A program made the position numbers and the translations under genes. Shown one piece after another: positions 21,536-36,348 of a stretch of DNA of 64,000 nucleotides. The DNA comes from Candidatus Bipolaricaulota bacterium (GTDB taxonomy: Bacteria; Bipolaricaulota; Bipolaricaulia; RBG-16-55-9; DRXL01), in contig JANXCC010000001.1 in NCBI GenBank assembly GCA_025060395.1, positions 62,276 to 126,275 on the forward strand. Direction: 5' to 3'. The notes under the pieces were generated by a model, which was not told where the DNA came from, made no database searches, and worked only from the letters and a program-made list of their open reading frames with translations. Position 1 is the first letter of the stretch; each line of letters starts with the position of its first letter.

Positions 21536-21542
21536 TAAAGCT

Positions 21543-22730
21543 ATGGAGAACGCGCGCAAGTGGTTTGCTGTCTCGGCTGTGTTGTTGCTCCTTTTGGTCT
21601 TTACGATCGCCCTTGCAAACTACAATCAAGAGTGGAAGAGGTACCAACGGGCGTATCTGATCAAAGTCTTCACGGAGAAGGCCTTGGCGGAGAAGGGCTC
21701 GCTCTCACTTCTCGATCAGATCGCGATTGCTGTGAGCGCCGAAGCCAATCTTCAGATAAAGAAGGTCGTCACGGAAGTGGGGCGCAGTGCCGATCTGTGT
21801 ATGACGTGTCACATCAACGTCGGTGTTCCCGGCTTTGCCCAAGAACCCTTGAAAGATCTCTTAGAGACCCATAAGAATTTGAAGATCATCGAGCAGTTGC
21901 CGTTCGATCAAGTCGGCTGTACCGCATGTCATGGGGGCAACTCTCTAGCGCTGACTTCTGAGCTCGCTCATCACGAGATGCGCTCGCGCTTTGCCCAGAT
22001 TTTTGAAGAATCTATCGAGAAGTTGCGCTCGGAACGCTGGGCGGAGCGCCAGCAGGGTATTGAACGAATTCGCTGGATGACCGCGAACGACTTTGGATTT
22101 GTCTTTAACGCCCCGAAGGAGAAACGCGAGGAAGCGATCGCTCGGATTCTCGCGTGGTGGCAACTCCACAAAGACACGTTCTTGGTCGAGGGCTTTGGGG
22201 AGCGGAGCTCGCCGTTCCGCACAGAAAATCCTCAGGCCAAAGTAATCGAAGCCCGCACCGACGTCTCGATCGCTGGGGAACCGTTGCAATTTGTCGGCTC
22301 AGCAACATGCGTAGCGTGTCATGGGCATCCCGAGATCAGCGATGCCTACATTCCTGAGTCGAGCAAGCGTCACGTCGAGCTCTGGTTCCGCCCGGAGTTT
22401 ATGACCAGCACAAACATTGAAGCATTCAAAGAGCACCCGTTCATAGACGAACAGACCCTCAAGACCATGGACGTGACGTGCGAGGCGTGTCACGGTCCAG
22501 GGAGCGAGTACACGAAGCTGATGCAGAAGGGGATGGCGCTCGAAGCCTTGGGGCAGAGCGTGGAAGCCGCGGCCTTGATCGCCAAGGGCAAGGAGATCGC
22601 GCGCGCCAATGCCCGCACAATCATCAGCGAGCACGACCCGGCAACAGGCTACTCCCGCGTCTGGGCGATCTTCGAGCGCCTCATCGAAAAGGCATTGGCA
22701 GCCCAAGGACAGAACCGCCCTACAGAATAA
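21543..22730 (+). CDS. Membrane-anchored tetraheme c-type cytochrome
   Basis: 395 residues. A single N-terminal TM helix (about 8-26) is an uncleaved anchor; the rest faces outside the cytoplasm. Four CxxCH heme sites are visible: 86-90, 126-130, 256-260 and 313-317. They form two pairs separated by a helical, charged stretch of about 125 residues. The last pair belongs to a cytochrome c554/NrfA-like part with further His residues as possible distal ligands. A CATAAT box (21531-21536) ends 6 nt before the ATG, so the mRNA may be leaderless. It lies 2.5 kb from the 3' end of the Rieske/b/Rnf operon and could be the electron acceptor of that complex. That pairing is inference. Confidence 0.85.
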   Translation: MENARKWFAVSAVLLLLLVFTIALANYNQEWKRYQRAYLIKVFTEKALAEKGSLSLLDQIAIAVSAEANLQIKKVVTEVGRSADLCMTCHINVGVPGFAQEPLKDLLETHKNLKIIEQLPFDQVGCTACHGGNSLALTSELAHHEMRSRFAQIFEESIEKLRSERWAERQQGIERIRWMTANDFGFVFNAPKEKREEAIARILAWWQLHKDTFLVEGFGERSSPFRTENPQAKVIEARTDVSIAGEPLQFVGSATCVACHGHPEISDAYIPESSKRHVELWFRPEFMTSTNIEAFKEHPFIDEQTLKTMDVTCEACHGPGSEYTKLMQKGMALEALGQSVEAAALIAKGKEIARANARTIISEHDPATGYSRVWAIFERLIEKALAAQGQNRPTE

Positions 22731-22746
22731 AAATAAATGCCAGGAT

Positions 22747-22775
22747 TTGACTTTCGCACAGATCTTTCTTACAAT
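22747..22775 (+). promoter_or_regulatory. Promoter of the Rrf2-Mrp operon
   Basis: TTGACT (22747-22752), 17 nt, TACAAT (22770-22775). The transcription start would be near 22782, inside the dyad that follows. Confidence 0.88.
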
Positions 22776-22782
22776 GAACTCG

Positions 22783-22795
22783 GAGTATTTTACTC
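22783..22795 (+). promoter_or_regulatory. Candidate Rrf2 operator
   Basis: GAGTA-TTT-TACTC is a perfect 5-bp dyad with a 3-nt centre at the transcription start. ACTCGGA also occurs twice, 14 nt apart (22778-22784 and 22792-22798). The AT-rich centre between half-sites resembles IscR-type sites (GACTNNNNYAGTC). Autoregulation by the downstream gene is likely but inferred. Confidence 0.6.
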
Positions 22796-22813
22796 GGAAT
22801 TTGAGGTCCTCCT

Positions 22814-23224
22814 ATGAGGGTGACGCGCAAGAGCGATTATGGGCTCCGGGCGCTTTGTACCTTGGCTCGGCATTATAATCGCGAACCGGTCTCGATTGGG
22901 CAGCTCTCGGCAGAGCACAAGATTCCTGAGCCGTTCCTCGAGAAGATCATGCAGGAGTTACGCGAGCATGGGTTAGTCGAAGCAACCCACGGGCGGGGCG
23001 GAGGATATCTGCTGAAGAAGCGTCCGTCACAGATCTCTCTCCGGGAGATCGTGCAAGCTCTCGATGGACCAATCGCGCTCGTGACGTGTCTCGATCCCAG
23101 CTTAAAATGCGCTATCGAAGATGGCTGTCCCACCAGTCCCATCTGGGAGATCGTGAATCATCAGCTTGAAGAGTATTTGGCATCGCTCACGCTGAGCGAT
23201 GTCATGAAACTGCAGGGTGAGTGA
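22814..23224 (+). CDS. Rrf2-family transcription regulator, probably Fe-S sensing
   Basis: 136-residue winged-helix protein of the Rrf2/IscR family. The N-terminus MRVTRKSDYGLRALCTLA and the wing ATHGRGGGYLLKK are classic. Three Cys in LVTCLDPSLKCAIEDGC (spacing C-x6-C-x5-C, residues about 95-108) match the cluster-binding region of IscR-type sensors. GAGG lies about 9 nt before the ATG. It heads an operon with two Fe-S cluster assembly proteins, so it probably tunes Fe-S biogenesis and may autoregulate through the dyad over its transcription start. Confidence 0.9.
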   Translation: MRVTRKSDYGLRALCTLARHYNREPVSIGQLSAEHKIPEPFLEKIMQELREHGLVEATHGRGGGYLLKKRPSQISLREIVQALDGPIALVTCLDPSLKCAIEDGCPTSPIWEIVNHQLEEYLASLTLSDVMKLQGE

Positions 23225-23233
23225 GGCCCCGTC

Positions 23234-24277
23234 ATGGATCTCAGCGAGCGTGCTCTTGAAGTCTTGCGCCAGATCGAGATCCCTCGGACTCGCCGGCCCT
23301 TGGGTGATCTCATCGAAGATCTCTCCATTGATGGAGGGTCTGTCCATGTGCGGATGAGGCTCGCTCCTGCCTATGCCTCCAAATCTCAGCTTACCTCGTG
23401 GGTCGAGCAAGCTCTTAAGGCCATCCCCGGGGTCGAGAGGGTGCAGGTCGAGTTCGTCCAGACTCAGCGCCCGCGCCCGAGGGTGCTCACCCAGAAGGTG
23501 CGCTTCCCTCAGATCGCACGGATTCTCGTAGTCTTCAGTGGCAAGGGTGGGGTGGGCAAGAGTACCGTCAGTGTGAATCTGGCGGTAGCGCTTGCGCAGC
23601 AGGGAGCGCGAGTGGGGCTCTTTGACGCCGACGTGCATGGCCCCAATATCCCTACTCTTCTAGGGCTGACCGAGCCCCCTGTGGTGAAGGAGGGCAAACT
23701 CCTCCCGATCTTCAAACACGGGGTTCACGCGATCTCGATTGGCTTATTAGTCGGAGGAGGAGATCCGCTCATCTGGCGCGGCCCGATGATATCCAAGGCG
23801 ATTCGTGAACTTTTAGAGAGCACGGCCTGGCCAGAGCTAGACTATCTGATTGTCGACATGCCTCCAGGAACAGGAGATGCGCAGCTAGGGTTGGCGCAAG
23901 ACGTGGAGCTGACAGGTGCCATTGCCGTGACGACCCCCCAGGAAGTGGCGCTCTCCGATGTGCGTCGAGGCATAGGCGCGTTCTTCAAGCTCCATGTGCC
24001 CGTCCTTGGGATCATCGAGAATATGGCGTATTATCTCTGTCCCAAGTGCGGGCATCGAGAATATATCTTCGGTCAAGGCGGCGGTGAGGCCGAAGCCCGG
24101 CGACAGAAGATTCCGCTCCTCGGGCAGATCCCGCTAGATCCGAAGCTGCGCGAGGGCGGTGACGCCGGTATGCCCATCGTGATCGCTCATCCGTCGTCAC
24201 CTGCGGCGCAAGAGTTCGGCAAGATCGCTGAGAGGCTCATGAGATATTTTGCTCTCAGTCAAGGAGAGCAGCAATGA
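23234..24277 (+). CDS. Mrp/ApbC-type Fe-S cluster carrier ATPase
   Basis: P-loop NTPase that carries and delivers [4Fe-4S] clusters to apoproteins in the cytosol. In its 347 residues an N-terminal MIP18/DUF59 domain (about 1-85) is followed by the MinD-like ATPase with deviant Walker A FSGKGGVGKSTV near 100, DADVHGPNIPTLLG, and the switch VDMPPGTGDAQL. The cluster-binding CxxC is in YLCPKCGHREY near 275. It follows the Rrf2 regulator by 9 nt and its stop overlaps the next gene (ATGA). Confidence 0.95.
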   Translation: MDLSERALEVLRQIEIPRTRRPLGDLIEDLSIDGGSVHVRMRLAPAYASKSQLTSWVEQALKAIPGVERVQVEFVQTQRPRPRVLTQKVRFPQIARILVVFSGKGGVGKSTVSVNLAVALAQQGARVGLFDADVHGPNIPTLLGLTEPPVVKEGKLLPIFKHGVHAISIGLLVGGGDPLIWRGPMISKAIRELLESTAWPELDYLIVDMPPGTGDAQLGLAQDVELTGAIAVTTPQEVALSDVRRGIGAFFKLHVPVLGIIENMAYYLCPKCGHREYIFGQGGGEAEARRQKIPLLGQIPLDPKLREGGDAGMPIVIAHPSSPAAQEFGKIAERLMRYFALSQGEQQ

Positions 24278-24603
24278 AGGAGGAGGTGACTCTCTATATG
24301 TCTCCTGACGAGATCCGCGAAGTGATTCGGGAGAACGTCTTCGACCCCGAGTTGGGCTACAATGTCGTGGATCTGGGGTTGCTTTACGACGTCGAAGTCC
24401 GCGGTGACAAAGATGTCCGCCTCGAGATGACGCTGACGACTGTGGGCTGCCCGCTCTACGAGCAGATCCAAGCCGATTGCGAGCGCGCTATCAAAGAGCA
24501 CTTCGGCGAAGACGTCAACGTCGAGGTCGACTTCGTCTTCGATCCCCCATGGACCCCAGAGATGATGTCAGAAGAGATCCGCGCGGAGATGGGTTTCATC
24601 TAA
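24274..24603 (+). CDS. MIP18/DUF59 metal-sulfur cluster assembly protein
   Basis: 109-residue stand-alone DUF59 domain protein, a family (SufT, PaaD, MIP18) that helps mature Fe-S proteins. The core DPELGYNVVDLGLLYDVEV and the TTVGCPLYEQI motif with the single conserved Cys are clear; the C-terminal FDPPWTPEMMSEE is typical. The ATG overlaps the stop of the mrp gene (ATGA), with AAGGAGAG upstream, so the two are coupled. It duplicates the domain at the N-terminus of the Mrp protein next door. Confidence 0.92.
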   Translation: MKEEVTLYMSPDEIREVIRENVFDPELGYNVVDLGLLYDVEVRGDKDVRLEMTLTTVGCPLYEQIQADCERAIKEHFGEDVNVEVDFVFDPPWTPEMMSEEIRAEMGFI

Positions 24604-25236
24604 ATGGCTCTCTGTGTGTACTGTGCCAAGAAGGCGGGCAAACGCTCATGCCCAGCGCTGGGAGGCCTCATCTGTCCCAGCTGTTGTGGACACCATCGAG
24701 GTATCGCGATCAGTTGTCCCGTTAGTTGCAAGTATCTCAAGACCCACGAGAGCTATCAACGGGTCCGCCTAGCGGAAGAGTTCCACGCGCTCTGGGTTGA
24801 GAAGACGGAACCGCTCTATAAGGCCGGCAAGGAGCGCTCAATCGATCTTCTAGTATGGATAGAGATGCTGATCTATCAGTTCTATCGTGAGCGCGCGTTG
24901 GGCACAGACAGCGAAGTCGTCGAGGCCCTTGAATTTTTGCGACGTCGGTTCAGTTCGTTGATAATCGTCGAAGCCGGAGGTACGACCTTAGCCAAGCATC
25001 TGTGGGAAGGACTCCAAGAGTTTCTCAAGAGAGAGTCGTTCCCTGCAGAAGCGGTCTCTGAGGTTCTCGAGAAGAGCCTTGAGATCTTTCGGGCGTATGT
25101 AGACCCTGCACAACCACGAAGGTATTTGCACGGGATGTTGGGCCATGTCGAGCGATATTTTACGCTCCCTGACGAGTTGAAAGGAAGTCCGTCGCTAATT
25201 GCTACCCCGCAGATCGTCACGCCCAAGATGTCTTAG
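24604..25236 (+). CDS. Conserved-looking protein with N-terminal Cys-rich metal-binding motif
   Basis: 210 residues, not assigned to a named family. The first 45 residues contain nine Cys in a pattern CxxC...CPALGGLICPSCCGHHR...CPVSCKYL, as expected for a zinc- or Fe-S-binding knuckle. I recall similar CPAL-CCG-CPxxCxYL N-termini in other bacterial hypothetical proteins. The remaining 165 residues look helical, with no obvious catalytic motif. The ATG comes directly after the TAA of the DUF59 gene, without spacing, so it is in the Fe-S assembly operon and may serve metal or cluster handling. Tail to tail with the Rnf operon, 7 nt apart. Confidence 0.75.
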   Translation: MALCVYCAKKAGKRSCPALGGLICPSCCGHHRGIAISCPVSCKYLKTHESYQRVRLAEEFHALWVEKTEPLYKAGKERSIDLLVWIEMLIYQFYRERALGTDSEVVEALEFLRRRFSSLIIVEAGGTTLAKHLWEGLQEFLKRESFPAEAVSEVLEKSLEIFRAYVDPAQPRRYLHGMLGHVERYFTLPDELKGSPSLIATPQIVTPKMS

Positions 25237-25243
25237 CGAACGG

Positions 25244-26287
25244 CTATTTCCAAGGGAGGACCCACTCCCACTGCGGACCGCGGAAGTACTGCCCGATAAT
25301 GATTAGCACGATTATGGCTCCAACGACGAGCGTAAAGAGTGCGGTGGTGACGGGGCGATCTCGCAGCCGGCGTCCCACGGGTTTGCTCTTGTCTTTGCGC
25401 CAAAACTCGAGATAGGGCTCAATATACGGAATAGCCATCAAGAAGAGCACAAGGAGCGCAGGGATGATCACTCCGCCAATTGCTACGCTCGTCAACGGCC
25501 CAATATTAGGGGAGATCGCCAGGAGCTCTTGAATCCCCACGAAGTACCACGGGGCTTTTTCAGGGTTAGGCGTGAACGATGGGGTTGCCGGCTCTTCCAG
25601 CGGGGCATCGCGGAAGACAGAGTAGATCCCTAAGCCCGCTATTAAGAAGAACAGCACGGTGAACGCCACATAAAGAAAGTATGGGTAGGTGATAATCTCT
25701 TCTTCTTCGGCGGGCAGGCGCTTCGCAAACGCTTCTAAAATCTTCTCGATCTTCTCACCGGTCAGCTCAGGGATCTCTTGAGCTCTGTGGTCCTTGCCGA
25801 TATAGCTGAAGACGGCATAGAGCACCTCGAAATCGTTAGGATCGCCACCGCCCTCTAAGAGCGACTCCGTGCGATTACTTAAATCTTTTAGTCTCTTGAC
25901 AGTGATCTTCTGGGTGGAGGGCAGCTCGCTCAAGGGGATCTTTTCGGCCGCATAGGCGAGGACAGTACGCACCAGCTCCGGTTCAATCTGAATCGCTTCA
26001 GCAACCTCATAGCCAGGGACTTCGACTTCAATATCTTGATTGACAGAGATCTGGCACGAGAGTCTCCAGCCCTTGGCAAGTTGCTCTTCCCCTAAGACTT
26101 CTTTCTCGTTTTGGTTGGGGTCTCCACCGCCCTTGAGGACGCGCACAGCACACGTTGAGCATTGCCCCTGGCCTCCACAGGTTGCCGGGAGCTGATCATC
26201 ATAGCGCTGCTCTTTCAAGAGCTGCAAGAGATTGGTCCCAGGGCGAACGTCGAGCTCTTTTTGTCCTAGAATGACGACCTTGGGCAT
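25244..26287 (-). CDS. 2Fe-2S ferredoxin fused to cytochrome b subunit IV-like domain
   Basis: 347 residues with two parts rarely seen together. Residues 1-90 are a plant-type [2Fe-2S] ferredoxin with cluster Cys 37, 43, 46 and 78 (CGGQGQCSTC plus LSCQI). Residues 90-195 are a soluble helical linker. From about 198 it is the C-terminal half of cytochrome b (subunit IV of b6f): TM about 203-223, the quinol-site motif APWYF at 245-249 (the PEWY counterpart of menaquinol-type complexes), and two more TM helices (about 266-288, 314-334). It completes the b-type subunit whose N-terminal half is encoded at 31547-32305. It starts 1 nt after the RnfB-like gene. The ferredoxin domain resembles that of its neighbour. 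Confidence 0.85.
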   Translation of the reverse strand: MPKVVILGQKELDVRPGTNLLQLLKEQRYDDQLPATCGGQGQCSTCAVRVLKGGGDPNQNEKEVLGEEQLAKGWRLSCQISVNQDIEVEVPGYEVAEAIQIEPELVRTVLAYAAEKIPLSELPSTQKITVKRLKDLSNRTESLLEGGGDPNDFEVLYAVFSYIGKDHRAQEIPELTGEKIEKILEAFAKRLPAEEEEIITYPYFLYVAFTVLFFLIAGLGIYSVFRDAPLEEPATPSFTPNPEKAPWYFVGIQELLAISPNIGPLTSVAIGGVIIPALLVLFLMAIPYIEPYLEFWRKDKSKPVGRRLRDRPVTTALFTLVVGAIIVLIIIGQYFRGPQWEWVLPWK

Positions 26288-26288
26288 A

Positions 26289-26927
26289 TCAGCTGACCCT
26301 CACTCCTACTTCAGCTGCTGCTTGTCGGAGTCTCTCGAGAACGGGCTTACCGCCAGGATAGCAACCATCGAGCTTGGCCTTTCCTGCTGCCAGCGCTTCA
26401 GCGAACTCTTCGCAAGTCGGGTAGCCACAGGCCGAGCAATCGAATCCGGGGAGGACTGCGCGCAGCTTAGCCGCTGCCGGTGAGAGCGCCGGGGCCTTCG
26501 GAGCCTCTTCGACAGCCTTACCTTCGACCTTGGGCCAAGACATCACTAAGGGCTTAAAGAGCTCAATTGTGAGATCGTTCTTCACCGAGATCTGGCATGA
26601 GAGGACCCAGCCCTCCTTGCGCAATTTGTCGCTTAATGGGCCGAGCATCGCCGGGGTGATCTGCTCAGGCTTAAGCCCGTCTAAGACTTTGACACGACAC
26701 GTCGCGCACGTACCTTTGCCGCCACACTGAGCAAACAGATCGTACCCCGCTTTCTTGAGGGATTGCATCAGATTTTGTTCTAACGGCAAGACCAGCTCAT
26801 TGCCATCATTTACTATCTTGACTTTCGCTTCACCCTCAACCGTAAGCAGGTTCTTCACTACCCCTAAGATGACAGCGACGGAGATGGCCATGAGAGCCAT
26901 CGTCGCTACGGGCACAAGGTAGACCAT
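26289..26927 (-). CDS. RnfB-like protein with a plant-type 2Fe-2S domain replacing the bacterial ferredoxin domain
   Basis: 212 residues. An N-terminal TM helix (about 5-25) as in RnfB is followed by a [2Fe-2S] domain with Cys 68, 74, 77 and 111 (CGGKGTCATC, LSCQI), like the ferredoxin domain of NqrF. The C-terminal Fe-S domain has the RnfB four-Cys signature GFDCSACGYPTCEEF plus Cys189 (ligands 164, 167, 172, 189). Normal RnfB continues with two CxxCxxCxxxCP clusters; these are absent. The ATG at 26927 has GGAGG 6 nt upstream and lies 1 nt after the rnfA stop. It takes the rnfB position in the operon and is presumably the route of electrons into the membrane module. Confidence 0.8.
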   Translation of the reverse strand: MVYLVPVATMALMAISVAVILGVVKNLLTVEGEAKVKIVNDGNELVLPLEQNLMQSLKKAGYDLFAQCGGKGTCATCRVKVLDGLKPEQITPAMLGPLSDKLRKEGWVLSCQISVKNDLTIELFKPLVMSWPKVEGKAVEEAPKAPALSPAAAKLRAVLPGFDCSACGYPTCEEFAEALAAGKAKLDGCYPGGKPVLERLRQAAAEVGVRVS

Positions 26928-26928
26928 C

Positions 26929-27525
26929 TTAGCCTCCAAAGTCACGAATGTTAATCATCCCTGAGAACCCTACGAAGCTCATGGCCATTAACCCTGCGAT
27001 GATGAGGGCGATCCCTGGGCCTTTAAGCCCTTCAGGGATGGGGGCGAATCGCAGGCGTTCTCTAATAGCAGCCATAAGGATAATCGCGAGCGCCCAGCCA
27101 ACTCCACCACCAAACCCGTAGGCCACGCTTTGCATGAAGCCCAGATTCCACGTGGCAATCGCGAAGAGCACCCCGCCTAAGATCGCGCAATTGACCGTGA
27201 TCAACGGCAAGAAGATCCCCAGCGAGCTATACAGCGCTGGGAGGAAGCGCTTCATGAACATCTCCACAACCTGAACCAAGAACGCGATCGTGACAATATA
27301 GACGATGAGCGACAGATACCCTACGCCCAACGGATCGAGCACGAAGTGCTTAATGAGCCAGTTAGCAGGCAAGGTCATCGTCAGCACGAAGATGACCGCC
27401 ATGCCCATCCCTGACGCCGACGCGTACTCCCCTGATACCCCAATAAACGGGCAGATCCCCAGAAACGTCGTCAGCAGAATATTATTCGTTAAGATCGCAC
27501 CCAGCACGATGAGGAAGATGTCCAT
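26929..27525 (-). CDS. rnfA: Rnf complex subunit A (RnfA/NqrE family)
   Basis: 198-residue membrane protein with six predicted TM helices. RnfA and RnfE form a pseudo-symmetric pair holding an intramembrane iron site. The two conserved half-channel cysteines are in LGICPFIGVSG near residue 25 and TVNCAILGG near 112. The length is typical. It lies 3 nt after rnfE and 1 nt before the RnfB-like gene. It could equally be called NqrE from sequence; the presence of rnfC and the absence of nqrA and nqrF favour Rnf. Confidence 0.93.
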   Translation of the reverse strand: MDIFLIVLGAILTNNILLTTFLGICPFIGVSGEYASASGMGMAVIFVLTMTLPANWLIKHFVLDPLGVGYLSLIVYIVTIAFLVQVVEMFMKRFLPALYSSLGIFLPLITVNCAILGGVLFAIATWNLGFMQSVAYGFGGGVGWALAIILMAAIRERLRFAPIPEGLKGPGIALIIAGLMAMSFVGFSGMINIRDFGG

Positions 27526-27528
27526 ATC

Positions 27529-28212
27529 TTAGGAGCCACCTCCGATCTGCCCGCCTGGCGAGAAGTGCTTGACGATCCCAACGTACAGCCCGACAACCAA
27601 GAATGCCCCGGCGGGGATGATCATGATGACCCAGGGGGTCCAGCCGCTGAAAATCTGAATGCCAAAGAGACTGCCAAAGCCCAGCAGCTCACGGATAATC
27701 CCTAGAAGCGTCAACGACATTGTGAATCCCAGGCCGACTCCCAAAGCATCGAGCGCTGAGAGCCCAGGGCTGTTCTGGCTCGCAAACGCTTCAGCACGCC
27801 CTAACACAAAGCAGTTTGTAATAATTAACGGGACATACGGGCCCAAGGCTGCCGACAGCGGCGGCAGATACGCCCGCAAGAAGATATCGACGATCGTAAC
27901 CCAGAACGCAATGATGATCATGTACGCTGGGAGTCGCACCTCCGCAGGGATGAGGGTGCGTAGAGCTGCCACCGTAACACTGGAAGCAACGGTCGCGACC
28001 AGCGTTGCCAGCCCCTGCGCCATGCCGTTGATGGCCATGTTCGTAGCGCCCATAGTGGGACACATCGCCAAGATCATTCGGAATGTCGGATTATCATCCC
28101 AGATGTCACGAACTAACTCTTTCCACCCCTTGGTCTGGGGCAGCCGCTGCGTTAATGGGATCGCTGGAGCTGATGCTTGTTGCATCGTCGTTGTCTTCAC
28201 TTCTGCCGCCAT
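27529..28212 (-). CDS. rnfE: Rnf complex subunit E (RnfE/NqrD family)
   Basis: 227 residues from the ATG at 28212, which has AAGGAG 9 nt upstream; the open frame extends to a TTG at 28278 but that region has no clear ribosome binding site. Partner of RnfA in the membrane. Conserved Cys lie in LAMCPTMGAT near residue 49 and ITNCFVLGRAEAFAS near 128. An N-terminal tail of about 30 polar residues precedes the first helix, longer than usual. Six TM helices are expected. It is flanked by rnfG and rnfA. Confidence 0.92.
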   Translation of the reverse strand: MAAEVKTTTMQQASAPAIPLTQRLPQTKGWKELVRDIWDDNPTFRMILAMCPTMGATNMAINGMAQGLATLVATVASSVTVAALRTLIPAEVRLPAYMIIIAFWVTIVDIFLRAYLPPLSAALGPYVPLIITNCFVLGRAEAFASQNSPGLSALDALGVGLGFTMSLTLLGIIRELLGFGSLFGIQIFSGWTPWVIMIIPAGAFLVVGLYVGIVKHFSPGGQIGGGS

Positions 28213-28284
28213 CTGCCTCAACTCCTTCTGGCCGGCTTTGGCCACAAAAAGCATACTATAATAGTCTGCTTTTTTCAAGGCTCG

Positions 28285-28980
28285 CTACCGGCGCTCTTTT
28301 TGCACGATCTTGCGTAGGTTCGCGATCGCCTGGTTCAGCAGATCCCGCACGGTCGTCGACGTATACGTCGCCCCGGTGATCGCGTCGAATTGATTAGGAG
28401 CCTTAGGGGTGTTGGGATCACGGAACTTGACGAATTCGATCCTAGGATCAGGCTTGATCCCCTTGAACTGGCTCCAGAACTGTTCTTCAGTCATGCGGAA
28501 GCCCAGTCCTGGGGTCTCCCCGATCTCGAAGGTGACGACGTGAGCCCCGATAATCTCAGAGAGATCAGGCTTGAGGGCGACTTGCATCGCGACCAGCCCC
28601 TGAAAGCCGCTCCCCGCAATGCGGATCACATAAGCCATTAGATCCCCACCGATCTTGTCTTTGTAGACCTTCCAATAGGTGAAGCTGTCCGTCTTGATCT
28701 CTTCAATATGCTCTTTGAAATACTGATCGACCTGGGCGGCGGAGAGCTTGGGCAATCCCTCGGCGGGAAAGAGCTCTTCGGCGGTGTACAGCCCTACAGC
28801 CACGAGAATACTCGATCTCAACCGAGCTTTGGCGTTCGCTTCGATGGTCGCTTTGGTCACTTCGTTGACAAGAGCAAGCAGCCCGCCGGCGATCGCCGCG
28901 ATCGCCGTCAGCACGATGATCATGCGCCACTCGTGCGGCCCGATCAGCTTCTTCTGCTTCTTGGGAGCTTGCTGTGCCAT
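28285..28980 (-). CDS. rnfG: Rnf complex subunit G, covalent FMN protein
   Basis: 231 residues. One TM helix (about 20-40) anchors an extracytoplasmic FMN-binding domain. The flavinylation motif reads TGATYTSTTV near residue 205, with a threonine in the position to which FMN is attached by a phosphoester bond; ETPGLGFRM is also typical. The start at 28980 has GAGGTGA upstream; the open frame continues upstream through rnfD and should be ignored. An ApbE flavin transferase would be needed, but none is in the window. It starts 4 nt after the rnfD stop. Confidence 0.92.
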   Translation of the reverse strand: MAQQAPKKQKKLIGPHEWRMIIVLTAIAAIAGGLLALVNEVTKATIEANAKARLRSSILVAVGLYTAEELFPAEGLPKLSAAQVDQYFKEHIEEIKTDSFTYWKVYKDKIGGDLMAYVIRIAGSGFQGLVAMQVALKPDLSEIIGAHVVTFEIGETPGLGFRMTEEQFWSQFKGIKPDPRIEFVKFRDPNTPKAPNQFDAITGATYTSTTVRDLLNQAIANLRKIVQKERR

Positions 28981-28984
28981 GGAA

Positions 28985-30103
28985 TCACCTCTTTTGGATC
29001 GCGGGAGCGGAGAAGCTCTTTGGGATTGTGAATCTGTCGAGCAACGGCGTGAACATATTGCCAATCAAGATAGAGAACGTCACCCATTCGGCGTAGCCGG
29101 TCAGCCCACGTCCTAGGACCGTCAGCACACCGAGCATCATCCCGAAGATCCAACGGCCACGGACGGTCATAGGGCTGGTGACAGGATCAGTCGCATTGAG
29201 AAATGCCGCAAAGAGCAAGCCTCCTGACAACATCGTGTAGAGGCCATCGGGGAATCTAGAGGGATCGACGAAGTGGAGGAACTGTGAGGTTAGCCCGGCG
29301 CTCACGATCATCACAATCGAAACGCGCCAATCGATGACTCGTGCCTGCAGCAGATACAAGCCGCTCAAGAGCACGAGCATGGCTGAAGTGGCCCCTAGGA
29401 CGTCTGCGCGTCCAAACCCTGTCACGAGCGTAAACAGATCGGGATTGGCAAGAGCAGGATCCCTGAAGGCTCCCAGAGGGGTTGCCTTAGCAATAGCATC
29501 GAGCCCCTTGACCGACTCCGGCGACCAATGTAAAAAGCCCCCAAGCCCATCGGTTAGGGGATTGAAGGGTACATACCAGAAGTTGGTCATTGCTGCGGGA
29601 AACGCTAATAACAAGAAGGCTCGCCCGCTGATCGCCGGGTTGAAGATATTGTAGCCTGAGCCCCCAAAGAGCTCTTTGATCCCAATAGCAAAGGCAATCC
29701 CCACCGCAACCATCCAGAAAGGCAGCGTTGGGGGCAACGAGAGCGCGTAGAGCATACACGTCACTAGGAGCCCCTCGGTAATCTCATGGCGACGAATAGC
29801 ACAGAACGTAAGCTCTACAGCAATCCCCACAAGATACGTTACGATGATGATCGCTAGCGAGCGCCAGCCGTAAAAGTATATGCTGGCCAAGACCAAGGGG
29901 ATGCACGCCAGGAGCGGTGCGCCCATATAGCGTTGCATCCCGATTGCATCGCGGATATAGGGAGCTTGACGAGCAGCCTTCTCGCTGCCGCCGAAGATCG
30001 CGTCCTTAATGCCCTCGACGATAATAGCCAAACCCTCACGACGGCGTGCTACCAAGTCTTGATGAATTCTTTCGAACAGCTCGTAGATTCTGTCCTGAAG
30101 CAT
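28985..30103 (-). CDS. rnfD: Rnf complex subunit D (RnfD/NqrB family)
   Basis: 372-residue polytopic membrane protein (about ten TM helices) that binds FMN covalently and probably riboflavin, and is thought to form part of the ion-translocation path. Family motifs: RRHEITEGLLVTCMLYALSLP, ELFGGSGYNIFNPAISGRAF, the probable FMN threonine in IAKATPLGAF near residue 210, and the late DPVTSPMT. A soluble N-terminal stretch of about 55 residues precedes TM1. GAGGAG lies 7 nt before the ATG. It follows rnfC by 13 nt. Confidence 0.93.
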   Translation of the reverse strand: MLQDRIYELFERIHQDLVARRREGLAIIVEGIKDAIFGGSEKAARQAPYIRDAIGMQRYMGAPLLACIPLVLASIYFYGWRSLAIIIVTYLVGIAVELTFCAIRRHEITEGLLVTCMLYALSLPPTLPFWMVAVGIAFAIGIKELFGGSGYNIFNPAISGRAFLLLAFPAAMTNFWYVPFNPLTDGLGGFLHWSPESVKGLDAIAKATPLGAFRDPALANPDLFTLVTGFGRADVLGATSAMLVLLSGLYLLQARVIDWRVSIVMIVSAGLTSQFLHFVDPSRFPDGLYTMLSGGLLFAAFLNATDPVTSPMTVRGRWIFGMMLGVLTVLGRGLTGYAEWVTFSILIGNMFTPLLDRFTIPKSFSAPAIQKR

Positions 30104-30116
30104 ATTCTACTCCTCT

Positions 30117-31544
30117 CTAGGCAGCTTCAGCCAGGATCTTACGCTTGCCTTCACGAATCTGCTCCAACAGCGGGATCTTGCTGGGACAGACATACGCGCA
30201 CAGGCCACACTCAATACACGCAAAGAGATCCATGTCCTGGGCTTCGCTCAAGAGCCCATGGGCGGAGTATTCCCCAAGCAACGCCGGCATGAGATTCTGG
30301 GGACATACATCGACACAGAAGCCGCACCTGACGCACGGCCTAGGATTACCGTTCAAGCTTGTGGTTGCGCGTTTGTAGCGAACCCAGGGCACGCTTAGAT
30401 AAACGCCGGTGAACGAGTCGCGATCAAATCCTGGGCCAGCCACGGGAAAGAGCTCACGCTCGGCTTCTCGTAACACGATGACCGCGGAAATCTCTTTAGT
30501 AATCGGGGTATTGAGATCGTCCTGGGCCTGCCCGCGCAGGACGCTCCCCAGGACAATCCGCCCATTACACTTCGTATTATTATTCTCCAACAGATTGCTT
30601 AAAGGCGTACCCACGCGCACCCGATAGTTCCCTGGCTCTTGAATAGCTGAGCCAGCCACTGAAACGACGCGCTCGACGAACGGCTTACCCTCGACGACGG
30701 CCTCGTAGGCCGCTACACACTGCTGGACGTCTTGCACGACGCAGCCAACGTCGGTCGCGTAGCCCCGCTGGGGCAGGAGCACCCCCAGGAGGGTGCGAAT
30801 GAGCACGGCATCGTCATGCTGGGGATATTTGGGGCGCAATTGGTGAATCGTGCACCAATCATAGTATTCCAAGCGCTCGATCAGCTCTTCGTAGATCCTG
30901 GGTTTGTTATACCCAAGCCCAATATGTACCTGAACGTTACCCAGGGCTTGGCGCAGGATCTTCATCCCGTTTACGAACTTGTCGAACTCTTCATAGAGCA
31001 ACTGATCGGTGGCTTCGCAGAACGGCTCGGTCTCGACGGCATTAATGATGAGATAGCGAATCTTCTCAGGGGTGGTGAACGCCGAGTGATAGGCGGTAGG
31101 GAAGCCAGCTTGGCCACCGGCTGTGACCCCTGCTTCGTAGAGAATTCTTCCTAGCTCTTCTGGGGAGAGCCTCTCGTAGTTAGCGGGAGGGTTGAGCTTG
31201 GCCCAATCGTCCTTGCCGTCGGACTCGATGTGGACGCAGAGCGTCTCACCTCCTAGGGGGTGAGGGCGCTTGTCGATCTTGACGACCCTGCCCGAGATGC
31301 TCGCGTGGACAGGGGTTGAAGGCTTCTTGGGATTGGGCTCAGCCCGCCCGATTATCTGCCCTGTCTTGACGCGGTCGCCCTCCTTGACGACAGGAGCCAC
31401 TTCGGCGGAAAACCCCTGACGCAAAGGGATGATCACTCTTTGGGGTGTCGGCGCTGTTTTTAATCTCTTGCCGCGCGGTGTCCCCTCAAAGAGCCCAAAG
31501 TAGTGGCCACCTTTAAAGGTCTTCAGAGATCCCAAGACGGCCAT
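30117..31544 (-). CDS. rnfC: Rnf complex subunit C
   Basis: Peripheral subunit expected to bind NADH and FMN and to pass electrons through two [4Fe-4S] clusters. In its 475 residues the N-terminal RnfC barrel-sandwich (FKGGHYFG, TPVHASISGRVV) is followed by the nucleotide-binding SLBB/51-kDa-like part with GGQAGFPTAYH near 145 and NAVETEPFCEATDQLL. The clusters use Cys 404, 407, 410, 414 and 443, 446, 449, 453. It lies between cytochrome b6 (2 nt away) and rnfD, which is the unusual point. It lacks the long Ala-rich C-terminal tail of E. coli RsxC. Confidence 0.95.
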   Translation of the reverse strand: MAVLGSLKTFKGGHYFGLFEGTPRGKRLKTAPTPQRVIIPLRQGFSAEVAPVVKEGDRVKTGQIIGRAEPNPKKPSTPVHASISGRVVKIDKRPHPLGGETLCVHIESDGKDDWAKLNPPANYERLSPEELGRILYEAGVTAGGQAGFPTAYHSAFTTPEKIRYLIINAVETEPFCEATDQLLYEEFDKFVNGMKILRQALGNVQVHIGLGYNKPRIYEELIERLEYYDWCTIHQLRPKYPQHDDAVLIRTLLGVLLPQRGYATDVGCVVQDVQQCVAAYEAVVEGKPFVERVVSVAGSAIQEPGNYRVRVGTPLSNLLENNNTKCNGRIVLGSVLRGQAQDDLNTPITKEISAVIVLREAERELFPVAGPGFDRDSFTGVYLSVPWVRYKRATTSLNGNPRPCVRCGFCVDVCPQNLMPALLGEYSAHGLLSEAQDMDLFACIECGLCAYVCPSKIPLLEQIREGKRKILAEAA

Positions 31545-31546
31545 TG

Positions 31547-32305
31547 CTAACGTCGCTTCCTTTCTTCAGTCCAGTAGGGCTTGCTGTACTCGTCCTTGCG
31601 GATCCTCCAGAAATGGAACGCTATGAGGAAGATCGTAATCATGGGCAACACAAAGACGTGAAGCACATACCAACGCAGGAGCGCCGGCTGCCACAGGTCT
31701 GTGCCGCCTAGCAGAATCTCCTGGACATACGGCCCCACAACGGGCACCCCAGCGGCAATGTTGCTAGCGATCTTGGCGGCATAATAGCCCAGCTGATCCC
31801 ACGGCAGAATATACCCGCTAAAGGCAAAGAGAACCGTAATCACCAGGAGCAGCACCCCGATGACCCAATTGAATTCCCTGGGCTTCTGATACGATCCGGT
31901 GAAGAAGACCCGCAGCATATGGAAGAAGACGGCAAAGACCATCAGCTCCGCAGCCCACTTGTGCATATTGCGCATAAATCTGCCCAAAGGAACTACGTTG
32001 ATGATCTCCCGGACAGAGTCATAAGCGCGCTCGACCGAGGGCACGTAATAGAACATCAAGAAGCCACCAGTGATAGCCAAGATAAGGAAGAGCCAGGTGC
32101 TGATAACCCCCATCCAGACCCAGTTATAACTGAGTCTCGCTGATTCTTTATGAATCTTAGCGGGGAGAATATGTACGAAGAAGTTGCGGCGATTCATGGC
32201 GAGTCGGTCGGCTTCGGTCTGAGGTAATCCCTCACGACGGAAGATCGAGAGCCAGACTCGCGAGCGTCGGATGCCCTGTAAGATTAGAAGGATCTTGTCG
32301 ATCAT
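31547..32305 (-). CDS. Cytochrome b6-like subunit (N-terminal half of cytochrome b)
   Basis: 252 residues, four TM helices, two b hemes. The axial ligands are His115 and His129 (14 apart) and His216 and His231 (15 apart). The 14/15 spacing is that of b6-type cytochromes rather than mitochondrial bc1 (14/14). ITGGFLMFYYVPS, MHKWAAELMVF and SGYILPWDQLGYYA are typical. A soluble N-terminal extension of about 55 residues is longer than in plastid b6. Its start overlaps the Rieske stop by 4 nt. The matching C-terminal half is seven genes downstream, fused to a ferredoxin. Confidence 0.94.
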   Translation of the reverse strand: MIDKILLILQGIRRSRVWLSIFRREGLPQTEADRLAMNRRNFFVHILPAKIHKESARLSYNWVWMGVISTWLFLILAITGGFLMFYYVPSVERAYDSVREIINVVPLGRFMRNMHKWAAELMVFAVFFHMLRVFFTGSYQKPREFNWVIGVLLLVITVLFAFSGYILPWDQLGYYAAKIASNIAAGVPVVGPYVQEILLGGTDLWQPALLRWYVLHVFVLPMITIFLIAFHFWRIRKDEYSKPYWTEERKRR

Positions 32306-32865
32306 GAGAACTTGATGTCGCTCCCGTCGGGTGTGGGACCTTCGATCTCTTGGCCTTCAACCGTGAGATACCAGGTAGAAGGGACAGTCTGAGCGTTGTC
32401 GACCTGAAGGCGTCCATCGGGCGTCAGGGATAGCCTGTAGAATGGTAACGGCTTAGGAGCCGGTCCCCCGAGCACCCGCCCATCACGCGCAAAGACGCTC
32501 CCATGACAAGGACAGACAGCGTGCACCACAGGATATTCTCGGGTTGGTGGCCCAAACGGCTTATAGCTGCACCCCAGATGGGTGCAAGTCATAGAGAGTG
32601 CTTGGAAGCCTAAGGGTGTTCGGAATATCAGGACCCTCTTGGCTTCGATAGGACGCATCTCCCCGACTTGATAATCACTGGGACGTCCCACTATGAAAGT
32701 TGTTGTGGGCTCGTAGGTAAGTCGTGGTTTGAGATAGAAGGGGATACCTTGGGCTATGCCTCCAAGGGCCAGAGCGAGCGATCCCCACCCTAGCCATCCT
32801 AAGAAGCGTCGCCGCGTCAACGACCCTATGGGAAGCTCGATAGTCGAATCTCTCTCGGCTTCCAT
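32302..32865 (-). CDS. Rieske 2Fe-2S protein of a quinol-cytochrome c/plastocyanin-type complex
   Basis: 187 residues. N-terminal Tat-type anchor: TRRRFLGW then a hydrophobic helix (about 22-45). The Rieske cluster motifs are CTHLGC (94-99) and CPCHGS (118-123), so Cys94, His96, Cys118 and His121 hold the cluster, and Cys99 and Cys120 form the disulfide. ARDGRVLGGPAPKPL closes the cluster fold. I chose the ATG at 32865; a GTG at 32886 is in frame but the ribosome binding site fits the ATG. It is the first gene of the Rieske-b6-Rnf operon, under a perfect consensus promoter. Confidence 0.93.
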   Translation of the reverse strand: MEAERDSTIELPIGSLTRRRFLGWLGWGSLALALGGIAQGIPFYLKPRLTYEPTTTFIVGRPSDYQVGEMRPIEAKRVLIFRTPLGFQALSMTCTHLGCSYKPFGPPTREYPVVHAVCPCHGSVFARDGRVLGGPAPKPLPFYRLSLTPDGRLQVDNAQTVPSTWYLTVEGQEIEGPTPDGSDIKFS

Positions 32866-32912
32866 CAAGCCACCCTTCTCCTTCACATTGCAGCCGCACT
32901 GTCGTGTGCCGC

Positions 32913-32941
32913 ATTATAGCAAGGGCTCTACGTCCTGTCAA
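32913..32941 (-). promoter_or_regulatory. Consensus promoter of the Rieske-cytochrome b-Rnf operon
   Basis: TTGACA (32936-32941), 17 nt, TATAAT (32913-32918) on the minus strand: perfect in both boxes and spacing. It leaves a leader of about 40 nt. A strong promoter fits a major energy-conserving complex. Confidence 0.93.
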
Positions 32942-32965
32942 ACGGTGAGCTTGAGGCATAGCTTG

Positions 32966-32979
32966 ATGACATGCGTCAT
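32966..32979. promoter_or_regulatory. Dyad between the Rnf and riboflavin operons
   Basis: ATGAC-ATGC-GTCAT, a perfect 5-bp inverted repeat with a 4-nt centre. It lies 25 nt upstream of the Rieske -35 box and about 24 nt upstream of the ribE -10 region, so a bound regulator could affect both. Candidate only. Confidence 0.35.
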
Positions 32980-33017
32980 GTGAGGGTCCTCCTCCTTTTT
33001 GCTATGATATCATATTG

Positions 33018-33612
33018 ATGTTTACCGGGATCATCATCGACACGGGCGAGGTCGTGTATGCCAGCTCGCATCGCCTGACCGTGAGCACCCCTAGGCTCTT
33101 TAAGGAGCTAGAGATCGGACGGAGTATCGCGGTCAACGGCGTATGCTTGACTATTATTGAGCTTACCCCAGCGTCAGAGAGCTTTTCAGCGGAGCTCAGC
33201 CCCGAGACGCTTGCGCGCACGAACTTGGGGTTGCTGCGGCGCGGCGATCTCGTCAATTTGGAACTGCCCTTGAGGCTTTCGGATCGTCTCGATGGGCACT
33301 TCGTGCTGGGGCACGTCGACACTGTTGGGGAGGTCGTCTCGATCTCCCGGAAAGAGAAGGGCGCGGTCTTCCGTTTTCGGGTCGACGCAAGATACTCGCC
33401 CTACCTCATCGAGAAAGGCTCGATCGCCCTCGATGGGATCAGCTTGACGATCTTTAATATTCGCAACGGGGAGTTCGACGTCGCGGTCATTCCCCACACG
33501 CTAGAGCAGACGAATCTACGCACGCGGCGTCCGGGGGATAAGATCAACGTTGAGTTCGATGTGCTGGGGAAATACATAGAGAAATTGTTCCAAGACAAAG
33601 GAGGCCAGCGAG

Positions 33613-33626
<14 letters not shown>
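33018..33626 (+). CDS. ribE: Riboflavin synthase, alpha subunit
   Basis: Dismutates two 6,7-dimethyl-8-ribityllumazine molecules to riboflavin. The 202 residues form two similar lumazine-binding halves: [12 protein letters not shown] and NGVCLTI in the first, [13 protein letters not shown] and LDGISLTIF in the second. The ATG at 33018 is preferred to the in-frame TTG at 33015 because the family starts MFTGI. TATGAT (33003-33008) ends 9 nt before the ATG, so a leaderless or near-leaderless mRNA is likely. No FMN riboswitch is visible upstream. It overlaps ribBA by 14 nt. Confidence 0.95.
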
Positions 33627-34828
<1,202 letters not shown>

Positions 34829-34839
<11 letters not shown>

Positions 34840-35248
34840 GATCGCGATCGTCGTCAGTCAGTTTAATAAAGAGATCACCCAAGAGCTGCTCAAGGCTGCG
34901 CAAGAAGAGCTTCAGCGAGCTGGGGTCGCGGAGATTGATGTCTTTTGGGTGCCGGGGGCGTTTGAGTTGCCCGCAACGGTGAAGCGTTTAGCTCAAGTGG
35001 GGCGCTATGATGGGATTCTGCCGCTGGGGTGCGTGATCAAGGGGGAGACCGCGCACTTTGAGCATATCGCTCGGGCAGTCGCTGATGGACTCATGCGCGT
35101 GACGCTCGAATGTGATACTCCCATAGTCTTTGGGGTGCTGACGCCGTACACCGAAGAGCAGGCGTGGGCGCGGATCTACAAAGGCGCTGAAGTCGCCAAG
35201 AGCCTAATAGAACTGATTCATCTTCGGCGGAAGCTGAGATCTGCCTAG
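34829..35248 (+). CDS. ribH: 6,7-dimethyl-8-ribityllumazine synthase
   Basis: Condenses the products of RibB and RibD/RibA to the lumazine precursor of riboflavin; usually a 60-subunit shell or a pentamer. In its 139 residues [11 protein letters not shown] at the N-terminus, [14 protein letters not shown] near 45, [15 protein letters not shown] near 75 and [15 protein letters not shown] near 105 are all conserved. It is slightly short (usual 150-160), missing part of the N-terminal tail. Its start overlaps the end of ribBA. Last gene of the riboflavin operon, where nusB often follows. Confidence 0.96.
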
Positions 35249-35280
35249 ACGGGTCCTGCTTATTCACGGCAAGCTCACCC

Positions 35281-35302
35281 CTCTCTATGAGAGCATAGAG
35301 AG
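35281..35302. repeat. Perfect inverted repeat after ribH
   Basis: CTCTCTATG-AGAG-CATAGAGAG, a 9-bp perfect stem with a 4-nt loop. There is no T run after it, so it is not a classic terminator. It ends 18 nt before a weak -35 box, which makes it an operator or a 3'-end stabiliser candidate. Confidence 0.5.
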
Positions 35303-35320
35303 CCACAGTGAAGATTCTTC

Positions 35321-35349
35321 TCGAAAGTCTCTTCGCTCTGTGCTACAAT
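35321..35349 (+). promoter_or_regulatory. Promoter before the small unknown gene
   Basis: TCGAAA (35321-35326), 17 nt, TACAAT (35344-35349). A GTG codon begins 9 nt after the -10 box. Confidence 0.5.
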
Positions 35350-35358
35350 AATCTTTGG

Positions 35359-35655
35359 GTGATCATTGTGATAGCAGCGAAAGATCGTCAGGTGCTTCAG
35401 ATGCTCGACACGCTCGGTGCGCCTCATAATAGCGATCTCGCGACGCGCACCGAGAGATTGCTGAACACCTTAGGTGTCTGGGAGGTCGCGCATCGACTGC
35501 GTTCTGCTTGTGCCGAGTACCCGCGCGAAGCTCAGGCGTTTTTAGAGTATCTGGCCCAGATCAACCCTGCCGCCGCTGATAGAATTCAAATATTGCTCAC
35601 AGCCACCAAGGGCGAAGACAAAGAGCTCGTTAGGCGCGAGTTCGGCGCAGAATAA
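35359..35655 (+). CDS. Small protein of unknown function
   Basis: 98 residues if it starts at the GTG at 35359, which is where a transcript from the TACAAT box would begin. A second GTG (35368) and an upstream start at 35308 are also in frame, but the latter precedes the promoter. The sequence is helical and charged (AAKDRQVLQMLDTLG, HRLRSACAEYPREAQAFLEYL) with no membrane segment or recognised motif. The position after ribH is where nusB sits in many genomes, and a very diverged relative cannot be excluded. The UPF0173 gene follows after 18 nt. Confidence 0.5.
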   Translation: MIIVIAAKDRQVLQMLDTLGAPHNSDLATRTERLLNTLGVWEVAHRLRSACAEYPREAQAFLEYLAQINPAAADRIQILLTATKGEDKELVRREFGAE

Positions 35656-35673
35656 ATCTTGAAGGAGGTCCCT

Positions 35674-36348
35674 ATGCAAATTACGTTCATTGGTCATGCC
35701 GCCGTCGAGATCAGAACCAACAAACACTCGATCTTGATCGATCCGTTCATCACTGGCAACCCCGTCGCAAAACACAAGCCTGAAGACTTCAAGCCCGACG
35801 CAATCTTGCTCACTCACGGCCACGCCGATCATTTGGGCGATGCCGTATCGATCAGCCAGCGCACCGGTGCGCCGATCATCGCGATCTTTGAGTTGGCAAC
35901 GTACTGTCAGTCCCAAGGGGCAAAAGCCGTCGGGATGAACATCGGCGGCCCAAGCCGCTTCGAGTTCGGAACCGTCCAATTAACCCCAGCAATCCATAGC
36001 TCCAGCCACAACGGACATTACTTGGGAGAACCCTGTGGGATAGTCCTCACGACCCTAGAGAACACAAAGATCTACCACGCGGGCGATACTGCGCTCTTTG
36101 GCGACATGGCCCTCATCGGAAAACTCGGATTAGATATAGCTTTCTTGCCCATCGGGAGTTACTATACGATGGACCCCGACGCGGCTGCTGAAGCCGTCCA
36201 GTTGCTCAAACCCAAGATCGTCATCCCGATTCACTATAATACCCTGCCGGCAATCACCCAAGATCCCCACAGATTCAAGACGATGGTCGAGTCACGGACT
36301 CAAACACAAGTCATTATCATGCGTCCCGGTGAGAGCGTGACTGTTTAA
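35674..36348 (+). CDS. Metallo-beta-lactamase-fold hydrolase, UPF0173 family
   Basis: 224 residues, close to the usual length of this family. The metal site THGHADHLGD near residue 50 is the HxHxDH motif; IHSSSHNGHYLG, the AGDTALFGDM aspartate and PIHYNT supply further ligands. Family members are predicted metal-dependent hydrolases with no firmly known substrate. The ATG at 35674 has GGAGG 5 nt upstream. Probably co-transcribed with the small gene before it. Confidence 0.88.
   Translation: MQITFIGHAAVEIRTNKHSILIDPFITGNPVAKHKPEDFKPDAILLTHGHADHLGDAVSISQRTGAPIIAIFELATYCQSQGAKAVGMNIGGPSRFEFGTVQLTPAIHSSSHNGHYLGEPCGIVLTTLENTKIYHAGDTALFGDMALIGKLGLDIAFLPIGSYYTMDPDAAAEAVQLLKPKIVIPIHYNTLPAITQDPHRFKTMVESRTQTQVIIMRPGESVTV

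Follow-up and report, generated by a model that had tools for sequence, protein, structure and literature searches.

A putative NADH-linked Rieske/cytochrome b complex with built-in Rnf/NQR pump parts, encoded by one operon in Bipolaricaulota

Electrons are passed to NqrD/E by a [2Fe-2S] domain in Na+-NQR and to RnfA/E by a [4Fe-4S] domain in Rnf (PMC12174285, PMC11889175). The closest functional parallel to the system described here is found in the Rieske/cytochrome b complexes of Kuenenia stuttgartiensis that are linked to nicotinamide adenine dinucleotide (NAD(P); Kuste4569-4574 and Kustd1480-1485; PMC12954380). Moreover, one sentence of a paper from 2012 places rnfCDGEAB together with Rieske and cytochrome b genes in a single cluster of 'Candidatus Acetothermum autotrophicum', read there as Rnf (PMC3267732). 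Here, we analyze an operon of nine genes in a stretch of 64,000 nucleotides (the window; contig JANXCC010000001.1, positions 62,276 to 126,275) from a Candidatus Bipolaricaulota bacterium, the draft genome of which comprises 1.70 Mb in 86 contigs, is 88% complete and carries the window on a contig of 370 kb. An earlier note on this DNA knew of no described operon with this gene order, which does not stand in view of the 2012 sentence. We consider it fairly likely that the operon encodes one NADH-linked Rieske/cytochrome b membrane complex, the assembly and electron path of which we infer from its genes. The scales are about even for a more specific reading, namely an uncharacterised respiratory enzyme in which an NADH module and Rnf/NQR pump parts are built into a Rieske/cytochrome b complex via a [2Fe-2S]-subunit IV fusion, and in which the pump arm is dispensable, leaving a six-gene NADH:quinone/Rieske complex.

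A check of the open reading frames confirmed the minus-strand run of nine genes at 25244-32886 in the order and with the spacing that had been claimed. Neighboring genes range from a 17-nucleotide (nt) overlap to a distance of 13 nt, with the exception of the rnfG-rnfE gap of about 72 nt, a length that presumes translation of RnfE from the ATG at 28212. All nine gene families are supported by Pfam and NCBIfam profile matches. The first gene encodes a Rieske [2Fe-2S] protein (32302..32886; CTHLGC...CPCHGSVF; PF00355, E=2.9e-9), whose cluster ligands are unchanged across 12 genomes and whose second motif reads CPCHGS-x-F, with Phe instead of Tyr, in every copy. It is followed by a cytochrome b6-type subunit (31547..32305; PF00033, E=3.1e-44; best NCBIfam match ExtP, below cut-off) with two His pairs at the b6-type spacing of 14 and 15; since the window copy contains no Cys, a covalent heme of the b6f type is not expected. 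Rieske ligands, four heme His and a quinol-oxidation (Qo) motif in subunit IV are thus all found, as in bc and b6f complexes, the Qo motif being APWY rather than PEWY.

The last gene of the operon (25244..26287) had been taken for a cytochrome b subunit IV, which is true of its membrane part, but the protein is actually a fusion of a [2Fe-2S] ferredoxin domain (PF00111, E=5.2e-12), a helical linker and a three-helix subunit IV (ExtQ, 1.8e-12; weak petD match). Residues 8-82 form the plant/NqrF-type ferredoxin domain, for which Foldseek pointed to the ferredoxin domain of NqrF, and C37, C43, C46 and C78 as well as the motif TPNPEKAPWYF are invariant in 15 genomes. The loop that joins helices 2 and 3 is rich in Arg and Lys, which by the positive-inside pattern would place the ferredoxin domain in the cytoplasm. 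The preceding gene (26289..26945), previously called RnfB-like, does encode an RnfB-type [4Fe-4S] domain (PF04060, 4.1e-13), but preceded by an N-terminal helix and an NqrF-like [2Fe-2S] domain (PF00111, 2.3e-10). We therefore refer to this NqrF/RnfB hybrid as B'. The nqrF and rnfB models each cover it in part only: TIGR01941 (405 positions) matches at 7-121 only, an extent that leaves B' without the flavin adenine dinucleotide (FAD)/NADH domain that marks NqrF in Na+-NQR, and TIGR01944 gives 47.5 bits against a cut-off of 68.7, compared with 106.6 for a canonical RnfB of the same phylum (L136). The polyferredoxin domain that marks RnfB in Rnf was found in B' neither by Pfam nor by NCBIfam. 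All eight cluster cysteines of B' are invariant in the alignment.

The B' architecture varies among relatives, which are named here by our genome (G) and locus (L) handles. In G013 (L046 11678-12472) it carries two tandem FeS [4Fe-4S] domains, and in G006 (L040 8411-9773) two genes share it, one with the RnfA remnant and Fer2 and the other with Fer2 and FeS. A Fer2 plus FeS module was also observed in a genome of the same order, from a family without the cluster, where it is fused to NuoC (G010, L048 8349-9338). The neighboring genes are NuoH/NuoD-like or encode a [NiFe] hydrogenase pair of the Vhu type, so that the locus looks like a hybrid of hydrogenase and complex I with the same wire module as B'.

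Five Rnf subunits lie between b6 and B'. RnfC (30117..31544), with a domain for NADH and flavin mononucleotide (FMN) and two [4Fe-4S] motifs, scores above cut-off (TIGR01945, 343.9 bits) and is closest among solved chains to RnfC of A. woodii (9eri_C); as in Rnf, both four-cysteine motifs are present, and they are kept in 12 of 12 copies. The membrane flavoprotein RnfD (28985..30103; TIGR01946, 249.6 bits, above cut-off) retains the Thr of the ATPL motif, which is the FMN site, and the riboflavin Asp. RnfG (28285..28980, presumed start) has an FMN_bind domain (PF04205, E=1.4e-12; TIGR01947 below cut-off) with the flavinylation motif TGATYTS. RnfE (27529..28212, start placed at the ATG after AGGAG; PF02508, E=7e-56; PRK12405 above cut-off) and RnfA (26929..27525; PF02508, E=1.1e-56; TIGR01943, 220 bits versus a cut-off of 229) each retain their cluster Cys. 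Hence, the window possesses the RnfA/RnfE pair with its [2Fe-2S] cysteines and the RnfG with flavinylation motif that belong to Rnf, all of which are absent from the clusters of seven relatives.

The arrangement is neither unique to this contig nor the product of an assembly join. Fourteen (14) further genomes encode the fusion, and the cluster order, taken from tblastn maps, is conserved in 15 genomes of four families; an assembly join is rejected because independent projects yielded several contigs, of 51-370 kb, with the identical order. The claim that the two cytochrome b halves enclose the rnf genes from opposite ends was borne out in every cluster long enough to tell. Among 100 genomes of the phylum, the fusion is confined to one Bipolaricaulota order ('Acetothermia'/'Fraserbacteria'; families f1, f3, f4, and f5); most of the cluster-bearing relatives that have a name go under Candidatus Bipolaricaulota, Acetothermia or Fraserbacteria. 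Full clusters are present in the window, G002, G005, G007, G008, and G013, as well as on partial contigs in G003 and G004. A pattern scan of 84,980 species, based on exact short motifs that distant relatives could escape, retrieved no full fusion protein outside Bipolaricaulota-type genomes. The other retained matches, mostly from Acidimicrobiia, comprise the cytochrome part alone, and RnfD, G, E, A, and B' are absent from the 66 loci of this kind. In one of the Acidimicrobiia (L069 7236-9182), an NAD(P) oxidoreductase that resembles GltD and carries a 4Fe-4S domain is located just upstream of the Rieske/cytochrome b locus, which resembles the Kuenenia-type arrangement, here in Actinomycetota; the 4Fe-4S match recurs in 36 of the 66 cytochrome-only loci.

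Seven genomes carry a reduced cluster of the order Rieske-b6-RnfC-RnfD-B'-IV (G006, G011, G012, G016, G017, and G018; D-B'-IV on a short contig in G015). No sequence is missing from these clusters, since RnfD is directly followed by B', in several cases with a short overlap. The rnfG gene was not found in the seven clusters, and a search of the seven genomes as a whole gave no RnfA/E family protein, while the full genomes carry exactly the two of the cluster. ApbE, by which FMN is attached to RnfG and RnfD (PMC12174285), is encoded in seven of the eight full genomes, the exception being G004 with a completeness of 72%, and in none of the seven reduced ones (two-sided Fisher test, approximately 0.0014, computed by hand and uncorrected for kinship). 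The reduced B' starts with extra membrane helices, the first part of which resembles residues 121-183 of RnfA, that is, its last helices (hhalign E=6e-9; 1.2e-6 excluding G006). A remnant of this kind would be expected after an in-frame deletion that starts at the end of rnfD and reaches into rnfA. The reduced RnfD retains the FMN threonine; the riboflavin-contacting Asn (N123 of A. woodii, by alignment) is replaced by His or Gln in G016, G017, and G018. In a concatenated tree of five proteins, G006 groups with the full f1 clusters (93/95), which implies two losses; the best tree has two changes, and the single-loss alternative is not rejected (approximately unbiased test, p-AU 0.11).

These observations suggest how a joint complex might work. 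RnfC would bind NADH and FMN and deliver electrons via its two [4Fe-4S] clusters to the [4Fe-4S] and [2Fe-2S] clusters of B', from where they could reach the [2Fe-2S] cluster of subunit IV and then heme b or the quinone site. The ferredoxin domain of subunit IV would be positioned on the cytoplasmic side, beside the b heme of that side and the quinone-reducing site, so that the quinone, presumably menaquinone, could be reduced there by electrons from NADH. Quinol might then be oxidised at the opposite EKAPWYF/Rieske site, with electrons going to cytochrome c and a terminal oxidase. In the full version, RnfD, G, E, and A would supply the additional U-shaped path over flavins and [2Fe-2S] clusters by which Rnf and NQR pump Na+ (or H+), and this arm may conserve energy as NQR does. 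In the reduced version the U-shaped route is deleted, and RnfD probably serves mainly as membrane anchor of RnfC. The simplest wiring is RnfC-B'-IV-heme b, since RnfC, RnfD, B', and the fusion are all retained in the reduced clusters, for which the U-shaped path is closed. The idea of one assembly linking NADH or ferredoxin, quinone and cytochrome c is thus strengthened for NADH, quinone and a Rieske acceptor by gene order, promoter, wiring domains and the retention of Rieske, b6, IV, RnfC, and RnfD; the ferredoxin port is weakened, since B' does not possess the polyferredoxin domain at which ferredoxin docks to RnfB.

With regard to direction, electron flow from NADH to quinone is our tentative first choice, slightly ahead of quinol-driven reduction of NAD+. 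No complex-I-type NuoF above the family cut-off was found in the 19 genomes searched; this makes RnfC the likeliest port of NADH into the membrane chain, with the proviso that no search was made for NDH-2 enzymes. Strong NuoF-like matches occur in six genomes. The one that was examined, on contig 11 of G000 (L146 1-2927), joins NuoF-like and GltD-like domains in a single frame of 975 amino acids; it is not a complex I module but probably a soluble flavin-based bifurcating enzyme. NuoH was not found in four genomes with full clusters and a completeness of at least 91% (G002, G005, G007, and G013); it is encoded in all reduced genomes, and in G006 and G012 it belongs, by our reading of the frames, to a membrane-arm operon without adjoining NuoEFG.

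The same complex might also run in reverse. Quinol would bifurcate at the Rieske site, one electron passing to cytochrome c and oxygen and the other via heme b, the [2Fe-2S] wire and RnfC to NAD+, yielding NADH for CO2 fixation. We regard this as doubtful, though it finds support in the proposal made for Kuenenia and the high Rieske potentials measured there (PMC12954380), in the terminal oxidases of most of these genomes (heme-copper type in 15 of 19) and in the description of the relative 'Ca. A. autotrophicum' as an autotroph using the acetyl-CoA pathway (PMC3267732). It is opposed by the need for an NADH-oxidising role in several genomes that have no NuoF-type dehydrogenase above cut-off. 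The Phe-for-Tyr exchange found in all copies of the Rieske motif, which lowers the potential, argues against it as well.

It is unlikely, to a slightly greater degree, that the operon encodes two enzymes that work apart from each other, a Rieske/cytochrome b complex and an Rnf/NQR-like pump of unusual type, and that these are co-regulated from one promoter for the same growth mode. Subunits acting in sequence are often co-transcribed, and the contact between the two halves is putative. Concerning the promoter, the claim of one perfect site before the operon is correct: a sigma-70-type sequence TTGACA-N17-TATAAT at 32913..32941 (minus strand), 5' of the Rieske gene, is the sole 12/12 match within 22000-36000 (14 kb), and G002, G005, G007, G008, G013, G006, and G011 have a site of this kind in front of their Rieske genes. 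Nevertheless, it is perhaps not the whole story, since a 14-nt inverted repeat conserved in the rnfG-rnfE gap (28246..28274, minus strand; arms A- and T-rich and 93% complementary) leaves the single-promoter reading unproven. The repeat overlaps a 9/12 promoter-like site, has a predicted folding energy of -9.6 kcal/mol (z -3.3) and recurs nearly identically, as an exact match to a degenerate pattern, in G002, G004, G005, and G007; in a genome-wide scan of the four g1 genomes carrying it, it occurs once per genome, and it is absent from G003 and G013. It could act as an attenuator, a processing site or the operator of an internal promoter, and the hairpin would divide the transcript between the two parts. 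Two separate enzymes would nonetheless leave unexplained why b6 and IV always flank the rnf genes, why a [2Fe-2S] domain is fused to IV and why the reduced remnant of RnfC, RnfD, and B', which cannot be an Rnf pump, remains between b6 and IV. A canonical Na+-pumping ferredoxin:NAD+ Rnf with incidental genes, as assumed by the 2012 annotation, is very improbable and is rejected for B' and for the reduced clusters, for although the Rnf cut-offs are reached by RnfC and RnfD and almost by A and E, and the full version retains FMN and cluster residues, there is no canonical RnfB in the cluster, B' carries no polyferredoxin, and the reduced clusters are devoid of A, E, and G and their genomes of ApbE.

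Several points weigh against the joint complex that we prefer. In one solved Rnf, the clusters of RnfC and RnfB are more than 30 Å apart (PMC11889175), so a direct step from RnfC to B' needs a different geometry. AlphaFold folds are single chains of modest confidence (pLDDT, the predicted local distance difference test, 66 for IV and 74 for B'), confident mainly in the ferredoxin domains and uninformative on contacts. The hairpin may split the operon into two expression units, and the case for RnfC as likeliest NADH port relies on the NuoF and NuoH searches without one for NDH-2-type dehydrogenases. The operon has no cytochrome c gene: by frame and Pfam check, none of the nine genes encodes a c-type partner (cytochrome c1/f or other), and a gene for a c-type cytochrome at 21429-22730 is on the opposite strand and not part of the operon. 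Finally, the window's genome contains a second Rieske/cytochrome b locus with multiheme cytochromes elsewhere (L051).

On the plus strand, the operon is flanked by divergent riboflavin genes (33015..35248; synthase alpha, PF00677, E=2.6e-47; ribBA-like and ribH-like by reading of the frames). Homologues adjoin the cluster in G002, G005, G007, and G008 and lie a few kb away in G017; they are conserved neighbors, not members of the complex.

If the proposed complex exists, it would connect NADH directly with the cytoplasmic face of a cytochrome b complex, for electrons either entering or leaving there; such a step is debated for cyclic electron flow through b6f and for the way in which anammox bacteria generate NAD(P)H. 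Full clusters, truncated clusters and the loss of ApbE would form a natural series in the dismantling of an Rnf/NQR pump, which makes it possible to test what RnfC and RnfD do when the pump is absent.

Among known systems, the cluster OP4C155-162 of 'Ca. A. autotrophicum' has the same operon-like gene set and is very probably the same system; in the sentence devoted to it, it is treated as standard Rnf, with no mention of a Fer2-subunit IV fusion, a B' hybrid or reduced forms (PMC3267732). The arrangement is thus partly described before, and the fusion, the hybrid, the reduced series and the co-loss of ApbE were not found described in the open-access literature searched. ExtP/ExtQ of Geobacter, for which we know of no ferredoxin domain and no rnf genes, come out best in NCBIfam for b6 and for the membrane portion of IV, although neither score reaches its cut-off. 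With Rnf (A. woodii 9eri, C. tetanomorphum 7zc6, A. vinelandii 8ahx) the operon shares RnfC, D, G, E, and A with their cofactor residues and the order C-D-G-E-A-B, but it differs in a B' with [2Fe-2S] and without polyferredoxin, in the flanking Rieske and split cytochrome b genes and in the loss of the pump in seven genomes. With Na+-NQR (V. cholerae 7xk3/8a1t) it shares the helix and [2Fe-2S] domain of NqrF, seen in B', but B' is without the FAD/NADH domain, and RnfC takes the place of the redox-inert NqrA. Of the phylum clusters included in the comparison, the one with the most similar RnfD is an NqrF-bearing locus of the same class (G038, L138 1820-7293). There, a first subunit that resembles RnfC but stays below the Rnf cut-off is combined with RnfD/G/E/A and a true NqrF, which gives the locus the look of an intermediate form of Rnf and NQR. 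The Kuenenia complexes have the Rieske/b6/subunit IV core in common with the operon, and in them, too, iron-sulfur clusters connect the core with a putative NAD(P) module on the cytoplasmic side. They employ an Nfn-like FAD module and multiheme cytochromes c, whereas the window has RnfC/RnfD, B', and the [2Fe-2S]-IV fusion and no cytochrome c in the operon, and, unlike in Kuenenia, the pump subunits RnfA/E/G stand beside the NAD module in some clusters and not in others.

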